From Candidatus Lithacetigena glycinireducens (GTDB taxonomy: Bacteria > Coprothermobacterota > HKB111): DNA of 10,525 nucleotides. The stretch covers positions 1 through 10,525 of the forward strand of contig QLUP01000027.1 in NCBI GenBank assembly GCA_018725485.1. The letters run 5' to 3'. Of the stretch, positions 1,863 to 10,486 are shown in pieces. Within the stretch, counting starts at the first letter, position 1; each line of letters begins with the position of its first letter. The notes under the pieces were generated by a model. The model was not told the DNA's origin, made no database searches, and was given only the letters and a program-made list of their open reading frames with translations. The translations under genes were made by a program, and so were the position numbers.

Positions 1863-4211
1863 TTAACGATTGAAAGAAACCAGGGTAACCCCATCCCCTT
1901 CATCAGGGTCAGCTAAGTAGTGTGAAATATAAGGATGTTTTTTCAGGTAGTCCCTGACTAACCTTTTTAATATACCTTTACCAATTCCATGAATTATTCT
2001 TACTTGCTTATAATTTGAAAGGTAGGATTGCTCAATATACTGGTCAAGTAAAATAAGGGCTTCTTCCCCTCTCATACCGTGCAGATCTATTATTGGGGGG
2101 ATGTTTTGGTAAGTAACCATGGATGTGTAACTCTTATCTTCTAATCTTTCTTTGTTCTTTGAGGGATTGGTTCTTACTTTAATTAATTTGACAGGAATTT
2201 CTGTGTTAAGTGACCCAATTTGTATCAGAGCGGTTTTTTTTGGTGAAAATATTTTTAAAACTGTCCCAAATTTTCCCAGTGTTTCTACAAAAACCTCATC
2301 TCCAGGAGATAATTCTTCAGGAGTTTTTAAATCCTGAGGTTTAACTGCCTCCTGTTCTCTGGATTGGAGAGTATTTAAAAAAGATTCAGCTCGTTCTTTT
2401 TGTTCCTGGTATATTTTTTGAGCAACTTTTAAAGATATTTTCTGATCACTTAAACTCTTAAGAGCCTCTTTCATCGAGGTTAATGCTTTTTCTATCTCTT
2501 CTTTGCCTTCTAATCTGATTTCTGAAAGAATCTTTTGTTTTTTTGATTTTAGCTCTTTTGTCAGGTTATTATAATAGGCTATAGTTTCCTCTGATTTAGA
2601 TGACAAGAGGTCATATTCTTTTCGCTTTGCTTCGTAAGATAACCTGGCTTTTTCAAGGCTTTTGACCAACTCAGAAAACTCTTTCTGACTTTCTGGTAAA
2701 TATGAATTTGCCTGAGCTATTATAGTCTCAGGGATTCCCAGGTTAGAGGCAATAAAAAGTGCATAACTTCTACCAGGAACACCTATTATTAACCTGTAGG
2801 TTGGTTTTAATGATTCCAGATTAAACTCCATAGAACCATTAGCAGCAAGAGGAAAGCTATAGGGGAATGTTTTCAGGTTTCCATGGTGTGTAGAAATAAT
2901 TAAAAGAGGCTTTAAAGAATGAATATAGGTTGTTATGGAATAGGCTAAAGATGAACCTTCTTGTGGATCAGTTCCAGCACCTAATTCATCAAGTATTACC
3001 AGTGAAGTGTCGTCAATATCTTTGATAAAAGAGCTAATATTTCCTATGTGGGAAGAAAAAGTGCTCATATTTTGAGTGATTGATTGCTCATCGCCTATAT
3101 CAGCAAATATTTTAGGAAATACCCCAAAAGTTGCTTTAAAAACCGGGATGGGAAACCCACTTTGAACGAGAAGTGTAAAAAGCCCTACCATTTTTAAAGT
3201 GACTGTTTTACCTCCGGTGTTAGGTCCAGTAATAATCAAGGTGCGATAAGAAGTACCTATCTCAATATCAACAGGCACTACCTCCACATTTAAAAGAGGG
3301 TGCTTCCCTCCGATTATTTCAATCTTTTTATCTTTTACCAGTTCTGGTATAACTCCCCTGAACGATGCTCCAAAAAGGGCGCGAGCAAATAAGGATTCCA
3401 GGTATATAGTGGTCTGAAGCAGGTTTTCCAGGTCAGGTAAATGAGATTTCAATTTCTCTGAAAAATCTTTTAATATACGCTTTATCTCTTCTATTTCTTT
3501 TTTTTCTAAAGTTACAATTTCATTACTAAGTGGTATAGTAGCTAAGGGTTCCATGAATACGGTTGACCCGCTTGAAGAGACATCATGAACAATTCCCGGA
3601 AAACTATTTTTAAAATCGCTTTTAACAGGAACTACCCAGCGACCGTTTCTCTCAGTTATGTAGGAATCCTGGAGTAAAGCTTTGTAATTGGAGCTATTTA
3701 CTATTCCTTCAATTGCTGATCTTAACCTTTCCTTGAGTATAAGTATTCTCTTCCTTATGGTTTTTAGTTCAGCAGAGGCGTTATCCAGCACAGTTCCATC
3801 TTCAGCAATAGAATCCATGATGTTTCTGGTTAAATCTGGAAAATCTGCAATTGATCTGATAATTTTATTCAAGTAAGGATAACTTACACGATTTTTCATG
3901 ATTTGTTGGAAATTGCTAATTATTTGCAGGTTGTTAGCAATATTCCATATTTCTATCGGGGATAAAATCCCGCTATGCACAAGCATCTTTAAAGGTTCTT
4001 TAATGCTTTTCAGTCCTCTTAGAGGATGACTGTTATTGTTAAGGAAACTCATAGCGTCACCTGTTTCCAGGAGAAGCTTTTCGACATCTGCGAAATCTGT
4101 GTAAGGTTTGATGTTTAGAATAAAATTCTTACCTTCTTCGGTGAGGGAGTATTCCTTAACTTTCTCTAAAATAGAATAATATTCAAAGGTTTTAAGCGTA
4201 TGTTGATTCAT
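1863..4211 (-). CDS. mutS2: Endonuclease MutS2 (ribosome-collision/recombination ATPase with Smr domain)
   Basis: MutS2 family, 782 residues, the usual length. There is no mismatch-recognition domain: the N-terminal part (about 1-310) is the core/clamp region, followed by the ABC-type ATPase with Walker A GPNTGGKT (329-336), the STFSSHIGN segment (383-391), Walker B LVILDE (404-409) and STHHG (440-444). A charged coiled-coil stretch covers about 505-620, a small KOW-like/beta region about 635-680, and a C-terminal Smr nuclease domain about 705-782 with DLHG (709-712) and HGIGKG (741-746). The family was first linked to suppression of homologous recombination; B. subtilis MutS2 is reported to split or cleave at collided ribosomes, which fits this operon of translation genes. 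ATG start at 4209-4211, preceded by a weak AAGG at 4221-4224, inside the 3' end of polX (20-bp overlap), implying translational coupling. It is the last gene of the operon. The Smr loop has Lys where Thr or a similar residue is commoner (HGxGTG). Confidence 0.97.
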   Translation of the reverse strand: MNQHTLKTFEYYSILEKVKEYSLTEEGKNFILNIKPYTDFADVEKLLLETGDAMSFLNNNSHPLRGLKSIKEPLKMLVHSGILSPIEIWNIANNLQIISNFQQIMKNRVSYPYLNKIIRSIADFPDLTRNIMDSIAEDGTVLDNASAELKTIRKRILILKERLRSAIEGIVNSSNYKALLQDSYITERNGRWVVPVKSDFKNSFPGIVHDVSSSGSTVFMEPLATIPLSNEIVTLEKKEIEEIKRILKDFSEKLKSHLPDLENLLQTTIYLESLFARALFGASFRGVIPELVKDKKIEIIGGKHPLLNVEVVPVDIEIGTSYRTLIITGPNTGGKTVTLKMVGLFTLLVQSGFPIPVFKATFGVFPKIFADIGDEQSITQNMSTFSSHIGNISSFIKDIDDTSLVILDELGAGTDPQEGSSLAYSITTYIHSLKPLLIISTHHGNLKTFPYSFPLAANGSMEFNLESLKPTYRLIIGVPGRSYALFIASNLGIPETIIAQANSYLPESQKEFSELVKSLEKARLSYEAKRKEYDLLSSKSEETIAYYNNLTKELKSKKQKILSEIRLEGKEEIEKALTSMKEALKSLSDQKISLKVAQKIYQEQKERAESFLNTLQSREQEAVKPQDLKTPEELSPGDEVFVETLGKFGTVLKIFSPKKTALIQIGSLNTEIPVKLIKVRTNPSKNKERLEDKSYTSMVTYQNIPPIIDLHGMRGEEALILLDQYIEQSYLSNYKQVRIIHGIGKGILKRLVRDYLKKHPYISHYLADPDEGDGVTLVSFNR

Positions 4212-5832
4212 GGATGATGGCCTTAAGTTCTTTTAAATTATAAGTGTTCAGAATATTATGCTTTGGCATACAGGACCTTTTAAGCATGGCAACCCCGTAT
4301 TTAAGGTAGTTAAGTTCTACAGGGTTATGAGCATCAGTTCCCAGAAACACTTTACCTCCTACAGCTTTAACTTTACGGATGTTATCCACATCCAGGTCTA
4401 AGCGAAAAGGTTGAGAGTTAACTTCCAGGTACTTATTGTGCTTAGCAGCTTCTTTAATTATGTAATCTATATCCAGCTGGTAGGGCAATCTTTCTTTTAA
4501 AATTCTTCCAGTAGGGTGGGCAATACCTTTAATATTGGGGTTTCTAATTGCTTTGACGATTCTTTCTGTCATTTTATCCTTATCCAGGGAAAAGTTAGAG
4601 TGAATTGCACCTATTGGCCAATCCATATGTTTCAATAGATTTTCTTCTATATCGAGGTTTCCATCCTTAAGAATATCTATTTCGCCACCCCATAGCAGGT
4701 AAGTTCCCTGATTTTTAGTGTTTATAGAATCAATTTCTTTTCTTAGTTCTAAATATTCATTTTCGTCTAAGCCACCAGCGATCTTTAAGGATTTACTATG
4801 GTCAGTTATAGCAATATACTCATATCCAAGAGCTGAGGCTATTTTGTGAATTTCTTCTAAAGACTGAGCACCATCACTCCAGGTAGAATGAGTTTGAAAA
4901 TCCCCCTTAATGTCGTTTAAATCAATTAATAAATCTTTTTGGTACTCATTTCTCCAGCTCACATCTCTCAATTCTGGTGGATAGTAGCTTGTTTCTGCCA
5001 GGTTGTATAATTCCTCTTCTGATTCTAATGAAAATTTTTTTCCCGATGCCGAATACAAACTATTTTCAGTAAGATTAAATCCTTTTGATGATAATTTTTC
5101 TTTTATCCTGAGAAACTCTTCTTTGGGACCTGTATGAAAAAAGAGAGATGGAATAAATGATGATGTCAGGACAACCTTTAATGGTATTGGAGTGTTGATC
5201 TCTAAGTATTTAGCTTCAGCATAACTTAAATCTTCAATTATTACGATAGCAGAATTACTTATCAAATCTCCACGACGGAAATCTCCAGCTATTTCATATC
5301 TAATAGTATCCAGGTTCATTTTATGAAGGTAATTATAAACAGCATTTTCAATATCTAATGGCAGAAGTAAGTGTTCACTGTTTAACACAAGTTCAATCCC
5401 GGATAATAATTTTTTCCTGAGATTCTCAGAAATACCAGGAAGGGGTTCAGAAAAGGTTAAAAGTATGTGTTTGAGATTTTTCAGGTCATAACAATAAAGG
5501 TTTTTGTATAAATTATAGGCTGTTCGAGGACCAACCCCGGGAATTTTTAAAAAAGATAATATACCAGGGTTTATTTCTTCTTCTAATTTCTCAAGCAATT
5601 GAGATTTGCCTGTTTGGATTATTTCAGTTATTAAGAGATATATTTTTTCGCCGATACCAGCAATAGATTTGATTTGGTTGAGCAGCTCATAGTTTTGGTA
5701 ATTTGAGTAATTATTAACAATTTCACTGGCAGCTTTCTGATATGCTCTTATTTTAAAGGGGTTTTCTCCCTTCATTTCCAGATAAAGGGCTATTTTCTCT
5801 AAAATTCGAGAAACTTCAAAACCCGTTGTCAA
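4192..5832 (-). CDS. polX: PolX-family protein: degenerate polymerase domain plus intact PHP phosphoesterase/nuclease domain
   Basis: Bacterial PolX family, 546 residues (usual about 570-580). An N-terminal 8-kDa-like helical region with KGENPFKIRAYQKAA (21-35) is followed by helix-hairpin-helix segments (AGIGEK 58-63; IPGVGPRTA 97-105), a palm remnant with AGDFRRGD (182-189), and a PHP domain from about 308. In active PolX the palm reads GSxRRG....GDxD with a third Asp in a VDLR-like strand. Here the aligned positions are Ser194, Ile196 and Pro217, and about 25 residues between strands are missing, so polymerase activity is unlikely. PHP metal ligands appear present: His315, Asp320, His345, Glu384, His411, His439, Asp500, His502. 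Gln313 replaces the first His of HxH, which I recall also in Thermus PolX. Expected remaining activities are Mn-dependent 3'-5' exonuclease and AP-site processing. Start is TTG (5830-5832) overlapping the pheT stop (TTGA), with AGAGGA at 5838-5843. No frameshift or stop interrupts it. Confidence 0.92.
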   Translation of the reverse strand: MTTGFEVSRILEKIALYLEMKGENPFKIRAYQKAASEIVNNYSNYQNYELLNQIKSIAGIGEKIYLLITEIIQTGKSQLLEKLEEEINPGILSFLKIPGVGPRTAYNLYKNLYCYDLKNLKHILLTFSEPLPGISENLRKKLLSGIELVLNSEHLLLPLDIENAVYNYLHKMNLDTIRYEIAGDFRRGDLISNSAIVIIEDLSYAEAKYLEINTPIPLKVVLTSSFIPSLFFHTGPKEEFLRIKEKLSSKGFNLTENSLYSASGKKFSLESEEELYNLAETSYYPPELRDVSWRNEYQKDLLIDLNDIKGDFQTHSTWSDGAQSLEEIHKIASALGYEYIAITDHSKSLKIAGGLDENEYLELRKEIDSINTKNQGTYLLWGGEIDILKDGNLDIEENLLKHMDWPIGAIHSNFSLDKDKMTERIVKAIRNPNIKGIAHPTGRILKERLPYQLDIDYIIKEAAKHNKYLEVNSQPFRLDLDVDNIRKVKAVGGKVFLGTDAHNPVELNYLKYGVAMLKRSCMPKHNILNTYNLKELKAIIHESTYA

Positions 5833-8216
5833 ATATTTCCTCTGAGTTCTCCGCCAATTGATTTACAATAATTAATAATTTTGTCTATCTCTTCTTTTAC
5901 CTGAGTATCGGTTAAAGTACTATTTATACTTCTAAAAGTAAAGGAAAAGGTATAAGAGGTTTTATTTCCATCATTAAAGTTAGTGAATAAATCAATAAGA
6001 TTGAAGTTCTCCAGGTGTTTTATGTTTATGGATTCAATTTTTTCCCGAATACTTCTATAGTTTACTTCTGGAGGAAAGGTAAGTGAAAGATGCCATTCCA
6101 CAGAAGGATAACGAGAAGGCTCATAATAAGAGGTAAAAATATTTTTTTCTGGCTGACATGAAAAATCTATGAACATTTCAGCTAAAAATAATTTTTCTAC
6201 CTGAGGTTTAAGTTCAACTATAAAGAGGGGATTAATTTCTCCTAAATAGCCGATTTGTTTTCCATCTTTTATAATGAGTGCTCTACGGAAAGGGTGAAAA
6301 AAATCATAAGATTTCATATTAATTTGGTCAGGTGTTTTATCGTCTATCTGTATTTTTAGGTCGAACTCCTCTGAAATACGGTTTATAACCCCACTCAGGT
6401 AATAAAAATCGGGTTTAATATTCGCCTTCAACCAGTTTGCAGAAAAAAGCTCTCCGGTAAATAAAAACGCTAAAGAACTTTTTTCAGTTTCGCGATAAAC
6501 ATGACCGATTTCAAAAATGGTTATATTTTTAGTCCCATATCTAATGTTATTTATGGCAGTTTTGAGAATTCCAGGGAGTAGAGAAGACCTGAAAAGAGAC
6601 ATATCTTTACTAAGAGGGTTGATCAGTTTCAAAGGTTGTTCAAATAGGGATATATCTTCATCAGAAACCAAAGAAGAGTTCATAACCTCGGTAAATCCTA
6701 AATGTACTAATAAAGACCTTAGGTTATCTTCTAAGGATTTTTTATAGGAGAAAGATACACTGGTAATAGGAGGTAACACTCCGGGAATTTTATTATAACC
6801 CGTAATCCTACCAACCTCCTCATAAATGTCTTGAGAGATTTCGAGGTCTCTTCGGTAAGCTGGGGACTTAATAATAAAAGTGTCATTTGATAACTCATAA
6901 TTTATATTTCTGAGGGAACCCTCTATCTCAGGGATAGTAAGTTCAGTACCCAGAAAATTGTTCACTTCGGTAGCAGAAAAGGTGATAATCTTTTCTGTCT
7001 GAAGTGGCTTTTTGAATAAAGTGGTAGTGCCAGATATAACACCGTAACATAATCCTTGAATTAATTCAATGGCTCTGCTCCTGGCTAATTCTGCAAGGTA
7101 GGGGTCGAGGTCTCTTTCAAACCTGTAAGAAGCATCAGTTGAAATACTGAGTTTTCTTCTTCCACTCCTGATTATCTCTGGAGAAAAATGGGCTGATTCT
7201 AAAAGTATTTTAGAGGTATTTTCCTGTATTCCGCTACCGAGGCCACCGATGATGCCTGCAATCCCAATAGCTTCATGGGCGGTAGCGATTACTAAAATAC
7301 CATCATCAAGAAGTTTCATTGAATTATCCAGACTCATAAGGTTTTCACCCCAGGATTTACCCCTTCTTACCTGGATAGTATCTTCCTGTATACTTCTGTA
7401 GTCAAAAGCATGAAGAGGCTGTCCCAATTCTAACATGACATAATTGGTAATATCTACGAGATTATTTATTGGCCTGAAACCTGATTTAAGCAGTTTTACC
7501 TGAATGGAAGAGGGTGAATCTGTAACCTGTAACTCTTCAATTACAGTTGCTGAATAAAATGAGCAATCATTATAGTTTTCTATTTCTAATTTAACCGGTC
7601 CTTTAAGTTCAGACGGTTCAGTGTAATTAAAGCATTTTGATAGGGGAATGTTTAAAATTGTAGATAGTTCCCTTGCCATACCGTATATGCTTAATAAATC
7701 ACTCCTATTGGGAAATACTTTTATCTCCAGGATCACATCGGGTAATGATAGTATGTTTACTATACTATCTTGTTCTGAAACACCCTTGAGAATGAGTATG
7801 CCCTCGTGAGACTTAGGGAAATATTCTTCAGGAAAACCCAGTTCTTTTAAAGAAAGAAGCATCCCTTCAGATAAAACTCCAGCGATCTCTTTTGTCTCCA
7901 ATTCTGCATGGTTGATAATAGAACCAGGTAAAGCCACGGGAATCTTATCACCCTTTTTTATGTTGTGAGCTCCACATACTATCTGTTTGGGGGGAGAATC
8001 AGCACCTAAAATTCGTACAGAGGTCAGTAATAGGTTCTGCTTTTTGGGGTGAGGAACGATATCAAGAATTTCACCGATTACAACATTTTTAAACGATAGT
8101 TCGAGTTTTATTTCATTTTCAATTTCCAACCCACAAAGTTCAAGGGTTTCTTTTGTTTTATCATTATAGTTAAAGTCAGGTACGAACTCTTTTAGCCAGT
8201 TTAAGGAAAATTTCAT
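5829..8216 (-). CDS. pheT: Phenylalanine--tRNA ligase beta subunit
   Basis: Beta subunit of the cytoplasmic (alpha-beta)2 phenylalanyl-tRNA synthetase: binds tRNA and edits Tyr-tRNA(Phe). At 795 residues it is full length. Visible domains in order: the N-terminal module MKFSLNWLKEF; the OB-fold tRNA-binding domain (about 43-150) with QIVCGAHNIKKGD (78-90) and VLSEGMLLSLKELG (114-127); the B3/B4 editing region with NNLVDITNYVMLELGQPLHA (251-270) and GIAGIIGG (318-325); a B5 domain around SPAYRRDLEISQDIYEEVGR (451-470); the catalytic-like core; and the C-terminal anticodon-binding FDX-ACB domain (about 697-792) beginning SRYPSVEWHL. Two positions usually charged in FDX-ACB differ (VEWHL for VERDL; SINSTLTD for SxDRTLTD), which is mild divergence. 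ATG at 8214-8216, one base after the pheS stop, with AGAGGA at 8222-8227 inside pheS. Its stop overlaps the polX start by 4 bp. Confidence 0.98.
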   Translation of the reverse strand: MKFSLNWLKEFVPDFNYNDKTKETLELCGLEIENEIKLELSFKNVVIGEILDIVPHPKKQNLLLTSVRILGADSPPKQIVCGAHNIKKGDKIPVALPGSIINHAELETKEIAGVLSEGMLLSLKELGFPEEYFPKSHEGILILKGVSEQDSIVNILSLPDVILEIKVFPNRSDLLSIYGMARELSTILNIPLSKCFNYTEPSELKGPVKLEIENYNDCSFYSATVIEELQVTDSPSSIQVKLLKSGFRPINNLVDITNYVMLELGQPLHAFDYRSIQEDTIQVRRGKSWGENLMSLDNSMKLLDDGILVIATAHEAIGIAGIIGGLGSGIQENTSKILLESAHFSPEIIRSGRRKLSISTDASYRFERDLDPYLAELARSRAIELIQGLCYGVISGTTTLFKKPLQTEKIITFSATEVNNFLGTELTIPEIEGSLRNINYELSNDTFIIKSPAYRRDLEISQDIYEEVGRITGYNKIPGVLPPITSVSFSYKKSLEDNLRSLLVHLGFTEVMNSSLVSDEDISLFEQPLKLINPLSKDMSLFRSSLLPGILKTAINNIRYGTKNITIFEIGHVYRETEKSSLAFLFTGELFSANWLKANIKPDFYYLSGVINRISEEFDLKIQIDDKTPDQINMKSYDFFHPFRRALIIKDGKQIGYLGEINPLFIVELKPQVEKLFLAEMFIDFSCQPEKNIFTSYYEPSRYPSVEWHLSLTFPPEVNYRSIREKIESINIKHLENFNLIDLFTNFNDGNKTSYTFSFTFRSINSTLTDTQVKEEIDKIINYCKSIGGELRGNI

Positions 8217-9243: not shown

Positions 9244-9606
9244 TCAAACCTTAATGCCAAGTGCCTCTTTAGATTTTTCAATTAACAATTGGAAAGAGTC
9301 TTTATCGTTTAAAGCAATATCTGATAACACCTTTCTATTAATATCAATTTCACATTTCTTCAGTCCTGCTATGAACTGACTGTAAGATATTCCATATTCT
9401 CTTACTGCAGCATTAATTCTGGTGATCCAGAGTGAACGAAAATCACCCTTTCTATCTTTTCTGTGAACATAAGCATAAGTAAGTGCTTTAAGTAATGCTT
9501 CTTTTGCCAACCTGAATCTTTTGTGTAATCCATGCTGATAACCTTTTGCTAATTTCAATACTTTCTTATGACGACGGCGGGTAGTAAAACCACCTTTAAC
9601 TCTCAT
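9244..9606 (-). CDS. rplT: 50S ribosomal protein L20
   Basis: L20 (bL20), 120 residues, full length; binds 23S rRNA early in 50S assembly and, in E. coli and B. subtilis, represses its own operon by binding the mRNA. The sequence shows the basic N-terminal extension (RVKGGFTTRRRHKKVLKLAK) and the globular RNA-binding part with FRSLWITRINAAVREYG, ISYSQFIAGLK, and RKVLSDIALND. The segment after the first helix (GYQHGLHKRF) replaces the commoner GYxGxRSxLFR form. It starts MRVKGG without the usual Ala after Met. ATG at 9604-9606 has an excellent GGAGGTG site at 9612-9618 with 7-nt spacing, in the 33-bp gap after rpmI. Confidence 0.98.
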   Translation of the reverse strand: MRVKGGFTTRRRHKKVLKLAKGYQHGLHKRFRLAKEALLKALTYAYVHRKDRKGDFRSLWITRINAAVREYGISYSQFIAGLKKCEIDINRKVLSDIALNDKDSFQLLIEKSKEALGIKV

Positions 9607-9639
9607 ATTAACACCTCCAGTATTAACAAAGAATAAATC

Positions 9640-9834
9640 TTAAATATTAGGTAAGAGCTTCTCGATATGCTCCTTATAGGTTTCATCCACAACAGTTTTG
9701 GATGATAACCTGGCTTTTTGATCTTTTGATTTTTTTCTTAAAAGGTGTGCACCACCCTGGCGTTTTCTAAGCAATTTGCCTGTACCGGTTACTTTGAACC
9801 TTTTAAGGGCGCTTTTTCTTGTTTTAATTTTCAT
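9640..9834 (-). CDS. rpmI: 50S ribosomal protein L35
   Basis: L35 (bL35), 64 residues, a small highly basic large-subunit protein. The motif MKIKTRKSALKRFKVTGTGK at the N-terminus, GGAHLLRKKS in the middle and the KLLPNI end are diagnostic. ATG at 9832-9834 is preceded by AAAGGAG at 9843-9849 (8-nt spacing), which overlaps the region of the infC stop codon; the gap to infC is 4 bp. The order infC-rpmI-rplT is the standard bacterial arrangement and allows L20 control of all three genes. Confidence 0.98.
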   Translation of the reverse strand: MKIKTRKSALKRFKVTGTGKLLRKRQGGAHLLRKKSKDQKARLSSKTVVDETYKEHIEKLLPNI

Positions 9835-9838
9835 AATT

Positions 9839-10360
9839 TTAACTCCTTTGACTTTTGGGGCTTAGCACCATGACTAATCTTTTACCATCCAATTGGGGTG
9901 ATCTTTCTACCACACATTTATCCTGTAATTGGTTGGTTATGTTACTTAAAAGAGCAATACCCAAATCTGAATGTGCTATGGCTCTTCCTCTCAGCATAAG
10001 AGAAATCTTCACTTTATCTCCATCTGATAAAAAACCCTCAATATGTCTTAGCTTAACTTCCAGGTCATGGTTATTGATGTTGAAATTTCCAAACCTGATT
10101 TCTTTAACTTCAATAACCTTCTGTTTTTTCTTTGCTTCTTTTTCTTTCTTATGGAGTTCGTATCTATACCGTCCATAATCCAGAATTTTACATACAGGGG
10201 GATCGCTGTTTGGAGACACTTCAACCAGGTCTAAGCCTTTTTGCCTGGCTATCTCAATAGCTTCGCGAGTGGGTACAATTCCTACTTGCTGGCCATTCTC
10301 ATCGATCAGTCTGACTGCCTGTGCTTTAATGCTTTCATTTAAACCTATGCCTTTTGCGAT
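9839..10360 (-). CDS. infC: Translation initiation factor IF-3, predicted AUC start
   Basis: IF3 binds the 30S subunit, blocks premature 50S joining and rejects non-canonical start codons and non-initiator tRNA. From the chosen start the protein has 173 residues, the normal length. The N-domain (about 1-70) contains LNESIKAQAVRLI, GIVPTREAIEIA, LDLVEVSP and PPVCKILDYGRYRYE; a lysine-rich linker (about 71-82) follows; the C-domain has EVKEIRFG, HDLEVKL, FLSDGDKVKI and LRGRAIAH. Start choice: GGAGGTG at 10367-10373 stands 7-8 nt upstream of ATC at 10358-10360, giving M(I)AKGIGLNE, which matches IF3 N-termini. The in-frame ATG at 10397-10399 has no ribosome binding site and would translate through the Shine-Dalgarno sequence as non-homologous MLIFPILYLEV. 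AUU or AUC starts are known for infC in other bacteria and provide autoregulation. First gene of the operon. Confidence 0.95.
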   Translation of the reverse strand: MAKGIGLNESIKAQAVRLIDENGQQVGIVPTREAIEIARQKGLDLVEVSPNSDPPVCKILDYGRYRYELHKKEKEAKKKQKVIEVKEIRFGNFNINNHDLEVKLRHIEGFLSDGDKVKISLMLRGRAIAHSDLGIALLSNITNQLQDKCVVERSPQLDGKRLVMVLSPKSQRS

Positions 10361-10486
10361 AAATCTCACCTCCAAATATAAAATGGGAAATATAAGCATA
10401 GATACTGCTTTTGCTACCCTTTCAGCATGATACTTCGGGGTGAGAAGCTGTTAGCAGTTTTATATTAAGCCTCTACTTTCCCTTAG
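10361..10486 (-). promoter_or_regulatory. infC 5' leader, candidate autoregulatory RNA (possible L20-type leader)
   Basis: A leader of about 125 nt with no credible ORF. Pairings visible on the transcript: TCTCACC (10439-10445) is perfectly complementary to GGTGAGA (10364-10370), which includes part of the infC Shine-Dalgarno sequence; AGAGGCT (10468-10474) pairs with AGCTTCT (10443-10449) with one G-U, overlapping the first element by 3 nt so the two compete; ATGCTG (10423-10428) can pair with CAGTAT (10402-10407); GGGAAA (10477-10482) matches TTTCCC (10385-10390), which is followed by a U-rich stretch. In B. subtilis the infC-rpmI-rplT leader is controlled by L20, so a similar role is a reasonable inference. 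I could not verify the L20-binding fold by eye. Confidence 0.5.
10367..10373 (-). promoter_or_regulatory. infC Shine-Dalgarno site that fixes the AUC start
   Basis: The minus strand reads GGAGGTG. GGAGG is separated by 8 nt (TGAGATTT) from ATC at 10358-10360, ideal spacing. No ATG, GTG or TTG in frame lies at a suitable distance downstream; the in-frame GTG at 10367-10369 is part of the site itself. This decides in favour of the AUC start. Confidence 0.85.

Follow-up and report, generated by a model that had tools for sequence, protein, structure and literature searches.

The polX gene of Candidatus Lithacetigena glycinireducens very probably encodes a noncanonical PolX, a PolX-derived nuclease that would process DNA ends or abasic sites and no longer makes DNA. 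The gene is located on contig QLUP01000027.1, within a stretch of 10,525 nucleotides referred to below as the window. The first-pass annotation, made from sequence alone, had described a polymerase-dead palm combined with an intact PHP nuclease domain. The lost catalytic triad, the short palm, the kept PHP ligands, the same state of the gene in a genus-mate and the action of purifying selection all support this description. The protein was also presented there as an oddity, which it is not, since such proteins form an already published class (PMC9226535; PMC12926913).

Locus and domain architecture

The reading frame, its strand and its coordinates were given correctly in the first-pass annotation, and the frame is clean (Table 1). 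mutS2 and polX are likely to be co-transcribed. An ordinary infC-rpmI-rplT operon is located at 9244-10399 of the window, with the L35 gene at 9640-9834 on the minus strand. An Rfam search of the window gave no matches.

Table 1. Features of the polX locus (window coordinates)
Feature	Position	Strand	Description
polX	4192..5832	minus	546 aa, TTG start; noncanonical PolX (8-kDa HhH, fingers HhH, degraded palm, thumb, PHP)
8-kDa / HhH domain	5605..5814	minus	residues 7-76; retained; Pfam HHH_8, E 5e-15
Second HhH	5494..5553	minus	residues 94-113; retained; Pfam HHH_5, E 7e-4 (weak, under curated cut-off); aligned with other PolX
Degraded palm core	5149..5286	minus	residues 183-228; 46 aa vs ~68; from alignment; no Pfam palm match
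Asp184, Pol beta Ser180 position (GS to GD)	5281..5283	minus	from alignment
Ser194, catalytic Asp position 1	5251..5253	minus	from alignment
Ile196, catalytic Asp position 2	5245..5247	minus	from alignment
Pro217, catalytic Asp position 3	5182..5184	minus	from alignment
Thumb	4966..5139	minus	residues 232-289, full length; Pfam DNA_pol_B_thumb; dNTP-site motif degraded to FHTGPKEEF
PHP nuclease domain	4195..4911	minus	residues 308-546; 9/9 ligand positions filled (QHHEHHEDH)
mutS2	1863..4211	minus	20-base overlap with polX 3' end
pheT	5829..8216	minus	upstream; 4-base overlap with polX start

The protein has the layout of bacterial PHP-PolX (PolX1), with an 8-kDa HhH domain, palm/thumb and a C-terminal PHP domain in one chain. 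Pfam matches above cut-off were obtained for the 8-kDa HhH, the thumb and the PHP domain; the palm has no match in the same search. The HhH motifs noticed earlier are there, the second one as a weak HHH_5 match. The best NCBIfam model is PolX NF006375, with a score of 388.6 bits that lies under its cut-off of 426. The solved structures closest by sequence are those of Thermus thermophilus and Deinococcus radiodurans PolX.

The AF2 model of the protein has a mean pLDDT of 89.8. Over the entire chain its fold agrees with that of T. thermophilus PolX (3au6; Z 42.5, with an rmsd of 5.1 across 531 residues) and with that of D. radiodurans PolX. The PHP domain resembles YcdX (Z 28.3, with an rmsd of 1.9 across 222 residues).

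Degraded polymerase site

When the protein is aligned with as many as 150 PolX sequences, the columns of the canonical D/D/D triad are occupied by S194, I196 and P217, the residues already named in the first-pass annotation. The blocks AGDFRRG and IPLKVV...FFHTG on which that reading relied align as it stated. Polymerase-active family X enzymes require three carboxylates, and the window palm lacks them: no three acidic residues occupy the site in the sequence, and the predicted strands (178-183, 195-200, and 216-221) keep the register of the alignment. A deletion of 22 residues lies between the second and third triad positions. Their spacing, counted on the alignments, is 20 residues compared to 42 in T. 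thermophilus PolX, close to the figures of about 20 and, for typical PolX, about 45 that were put forward earlier. The palm core (residues 183-228) is thus shortened to 46 aa, while 66-70 aa is found in 99 of the 102 canonical proteins; the remaining three constitute the L004 group described below and have a core of 50 aa. The stretch that stands in place of the deleted palm helix and strands is poorly predicted, with a pLDDT of 59-66 for palm residues 201-220, so structural detail is unreliable there.

The dNTP site is degraded as well. GSxRR is changed to GDFRR and YFTGSKxHN to FHTGPKEEF, so that the steric gate, the GS turn and the Asn279 equivalent (now Phe) are all altered. The Arg pair of GxxRR and Lys237 are kept, and residual nucleotide binding is therefore possible. 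The fingers are not deleted, as residues 223-305 show no deletion relative to T. thermophilus PolX. Since the three carboxylates and the intervening segment are lost, the palm would be able neither to hold two metal ions nor to position a dNTP, and we infer from these sequence features that it is catalytically inactive.

PHP nuclease site

Each of the nine ligand positions in PHP is filled (Q313, H315, H345, E384, H411, H439, E470, D500, and H502 in the alignment). The earlier statement that the ligands are kept stands in this respect, with the correction that the first of them is Gln and not His. The resulting pattern, QHHEHHEDH, is the one reported for T. thermophilus PolX (PMC9226535).

Relation to known PolX proteins

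Noncanonical PolXs were defined by Prostova et al. (2022) and made up 27.5% of their prokaryotic PolX set (PMC9226535). They are characterised by substitutions in the triad, deletions in palm and fingers, degraded dNTP sites and an intact PHP domain (PMC9226535). Judged by the defining features that can be tested on its sequence, the window PolX is a member of this class. At least one triad substitution is required and three are present (S194/I196/P217); the dNTP site is substituted; and the PHP site, which should keep 8-9 ligands, reads QHHEHHEDH. Of two frequent features, the palm deletion is present (46 aa core) and the fingers deletion, which is not required, is absent.

The noncanonical PolXs of D. 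radiodurans, D. gobiensis, Mesorhizobium and Bacteroidetes share with the window protein the altered triad, the short palm, the degraded dNTP site and the intact PHP and 8-kDa domains (PMC9226535). The window protein differs from them in its S/I/P triad, in its untruncated fingers and thumb and in having no Ku found in its genome. Its PHP pattern starts with Gln, whereas 98% of altered PolXs have HHHEHHEDH (PMC9226535). Compared to canonical PolX1 (T. thermophilus 3au2/3au6, Bacillus subtilis), it has the same domain order and fold, and the PHP ligand pattern of the T. thermophilus enzyme, but lacks the catalytic triad and has a palm core of 46 aa instead of about 68. The PolX-like proteins of Actinobacteria likewise keep PHP without a working polymerase; they have no polymerase region at all (PMC12926913), whereas a palm remnant and the thumb persist in the window protein.

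Several other PolX loci deserve mention in their own right. A full-length open-frame PolX in genome G185 (L121) has the triad D/N/S and has lost most of its PHP ligands (RSAERPEGQ). Two genomes (L048 in G021, L120 in G252) carry a second PolX with the triad N/N/K beside a canonical one. On a Mesorhizobium huakuii plasmid (L054), a polymerase-dead PolX with the triad A/A/R directly adjoins ligD, a gene for an NHEJ ligase.

Probable function

Two Deinococcus noncanonical PolXs, from D. radiodurans and D. gobiensis, are polymerase-inactive Mn-dependent 3'-5' exonucleases (PMC9226535). By analogy, the window protein would have exonuclease or AP-processing activity, and trimming or cleaning of 3' ends appears to be its most likely role. 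The 8-kDa/HhH and thumb parts would bind gapped, nicked or recessed DNA. The PHP domain would then trim nucleotides off the 3' terminus or clear 3' ends that are blocked, in a reaction dependent on Mn, as Deinococcus and Bacillus PolX suggest, and might also process AP sites on the bound DNA. The gap would presumably be filled by another polymerase; Pol I is present in the genome, and no second, canonical PolX was found in this assembly (83% complete). Endonuclease IV is present as well, and a search for exonuclease III came up empty in both genomes of the genus, which may leave room for an additional 3'-end-processing enzyme. Ku was found neither in this genome (83% complete) nor in that of the genus-mate (93% complete). 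The link of the class to NHEJ is thus unsupported here, and on the basis of these two incomplete assemblies we rejected an NHEJ role for the window PolX.

The main job of the protein could alternatively be structural, e.g., that of a partner of MutS2, or its loader, on branched DNA, with PHP activity being secondary. The 20-base overlap of polX with mutS2, the conservation of this pair in the genus and the retained HhH and thumb parts would suit such a role. We consider it improbable, as the PHP ligands are strictly kept, dN between the two species is lower in PHP than in the thumb, palm and 8-kDa parts, and operon neighbours alone do not prove a complex.

It is more doubtful still that the palm polymerises in a rearranged site, using displaced carboxylates (D189, E200, D201) or glutamates. 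E200-D201 lie beside the old active-site strand, off the triad positions, and are conserved in the genus-mate, which, together with the kept Arg pair and K237, speaks for some such use; moreover, D. radiodurans PolX with its AEE triad was once reported to be active (cited in PMC9226535). However, later work found both the D. radiodurans and D. gobiensis proteins inactive (PMC9226535), and the window palm combines non-acidic residues at all three triad positions with a missing segment and degraded dNTP motifs.

Retention of the gene in the genus

The genus, named from serpentinite-hosted springs (PMC9751293), includes Ca. Psychracetigena formicireducens, whose PolX shares 82% identity with that of the window (QLTX01000005.1, locus L032; L003/L052 lie on this contig too). 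Its triad is Ser/Thr/Pro, its palm core is likewise 46 aa long, and the gene order infC-rplT-pheS-pheT-polX-mutS2 is common to both species. This answers the question, raised in the first-pass annotation, of whether relatives share the loss. As the same changes are carried by a separate assembly, chance and an assembly or sequencing error are ruled out.

For this species pair, Nei-Gojobori dN/dS is 0.165 over the whole PolX, 0.12 in PHP and 0.16-0.20 in the palm, with 0.13, 0.16, and 0.14 for the neighbouring mutS2, pheT and pheS; the whole-protein figure resembles those of mutS2 and pheT. The gene is under purifying selection and is not decaying, in line with the earlier proposal, which relied on the clean frame, the HhH motifs and the kept PHP ligands. 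That loss of the palm marks the onset of pseudogenisation in a small genome is a most improbable explanation: the palm does have the highest dN (0.15-0.20) and the lowest identity (64-72%) of the PolX domains, but the low dN/dS extends even to the palm, the PHP ligands are intact, and the frame is open and full-length in two species which share the loss and the gene order, so this reading was rejected.

Origin of the gene and a short-palmed group with an intact triad

Six genomes of phylum-mates contain PolX (five full-length sequences and one partial), and all of these have D/D/D. With the palm columns excluded from the trees, the window pair falls elsewhere, and a forced clade with the phylum-mates is rejected (AU p 0.004, 30 taxa). 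We therefore rejected vertical descent from the canonical PolX of the phylum. Forcing a clade with D. radiodurans and rhizobial noncanonical PolX gives AU p 0.023 with 30 taxa and 0.29 with 63 taxa, and the best tree puts the window PolX outside the main Deinococcus/Bacteroidetes/Alphaproteobacteria cluster. The AU test does not reject a grouping with the altered PolX found in the G046 phylum (p 0.17). The loss probably occurred separately from that in the main published noncanonical cluster. Either horizontal transfer or the differential loss of ancient paralogues could account for the origin of PolX in this lineage.

The best placement of the window pair is with L004, L086 and L087 (genomes G053, G142, and G141), with SH-aLRT of 95 and 87 in two palm-free trees; we treat this sister grouping as a lead, both branches being long. 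PolX of the L004 group (1477-3096 in L004, 1501-3120 in L086, and the gene in L087) has an intact D/D/D triad. A shortened palm core and pheT located just upstream are common to this group and the window, with cvpA standing between pheT and polX in the L004 group. The L004 group differs in keeping the triad, in an additional loss of some 17 aa from the thumb strands and in its compact palm, modelled for L004 by AF2 as a strand-helix-strand core (mean pLDDT 91.6). According to Prostova et al., all 55 of the double-truncated PolXs in their set have altered triads (PMC9226535), and the L004 group is an apparent exception to this statement. Since its palm is short and its triad intact, it suggests that palm shortening can precede triad loss.

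Acidic residue at the Ser180 position of altered palms

Every one of the 102 canonical PolXs has Ser or Gly at the position equivalent to Pol beta Ser180. Of the 48 altered PolXs, 29 have Asp or Glu there, against none of the canonical ones, and the Arg pair that follows is kept in 46 of the 48. On the tree, the informative independent pairs all point in the same direction (median sign-test p 0.125, range 0.031-0.25); these pairs are few, and a single clade supplies 19 of the tree's 46 altered rows. The association therefore stays a lead, as the informative independent pairs are too few. Tentatively, we speculate that a D/D/D palm first became compact through loss of its middle segment, as in the L004 group, and the triad was lost second, and that the recurrent change of Ser180 to Asp/Glu was possibly selected, perhaps through a salt bridge to Arg-Arg that re-purposes the triphosphate pocket; we rate this scenario as rather unlikely.

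Implications

The automated name DNA polymerase X implies gap-filling synthesis, which the window protein almost certainly cannot perform. An acidic residue at the Ser180 position could be used as a simple marker of such dead palms in sequences. The L004 group, with its truncated palm and intact triad, provides a testable intermediate. In a 2026 survey of PolX1, conservation was higher for the PHP site than for the polymerase site (PMC12926913). In the published picture, PHP is the half of bacterial PolX that is more strongly retained. To this the window gene adds what is probably a separate loss, from a candidate phylum that has been sampled little.
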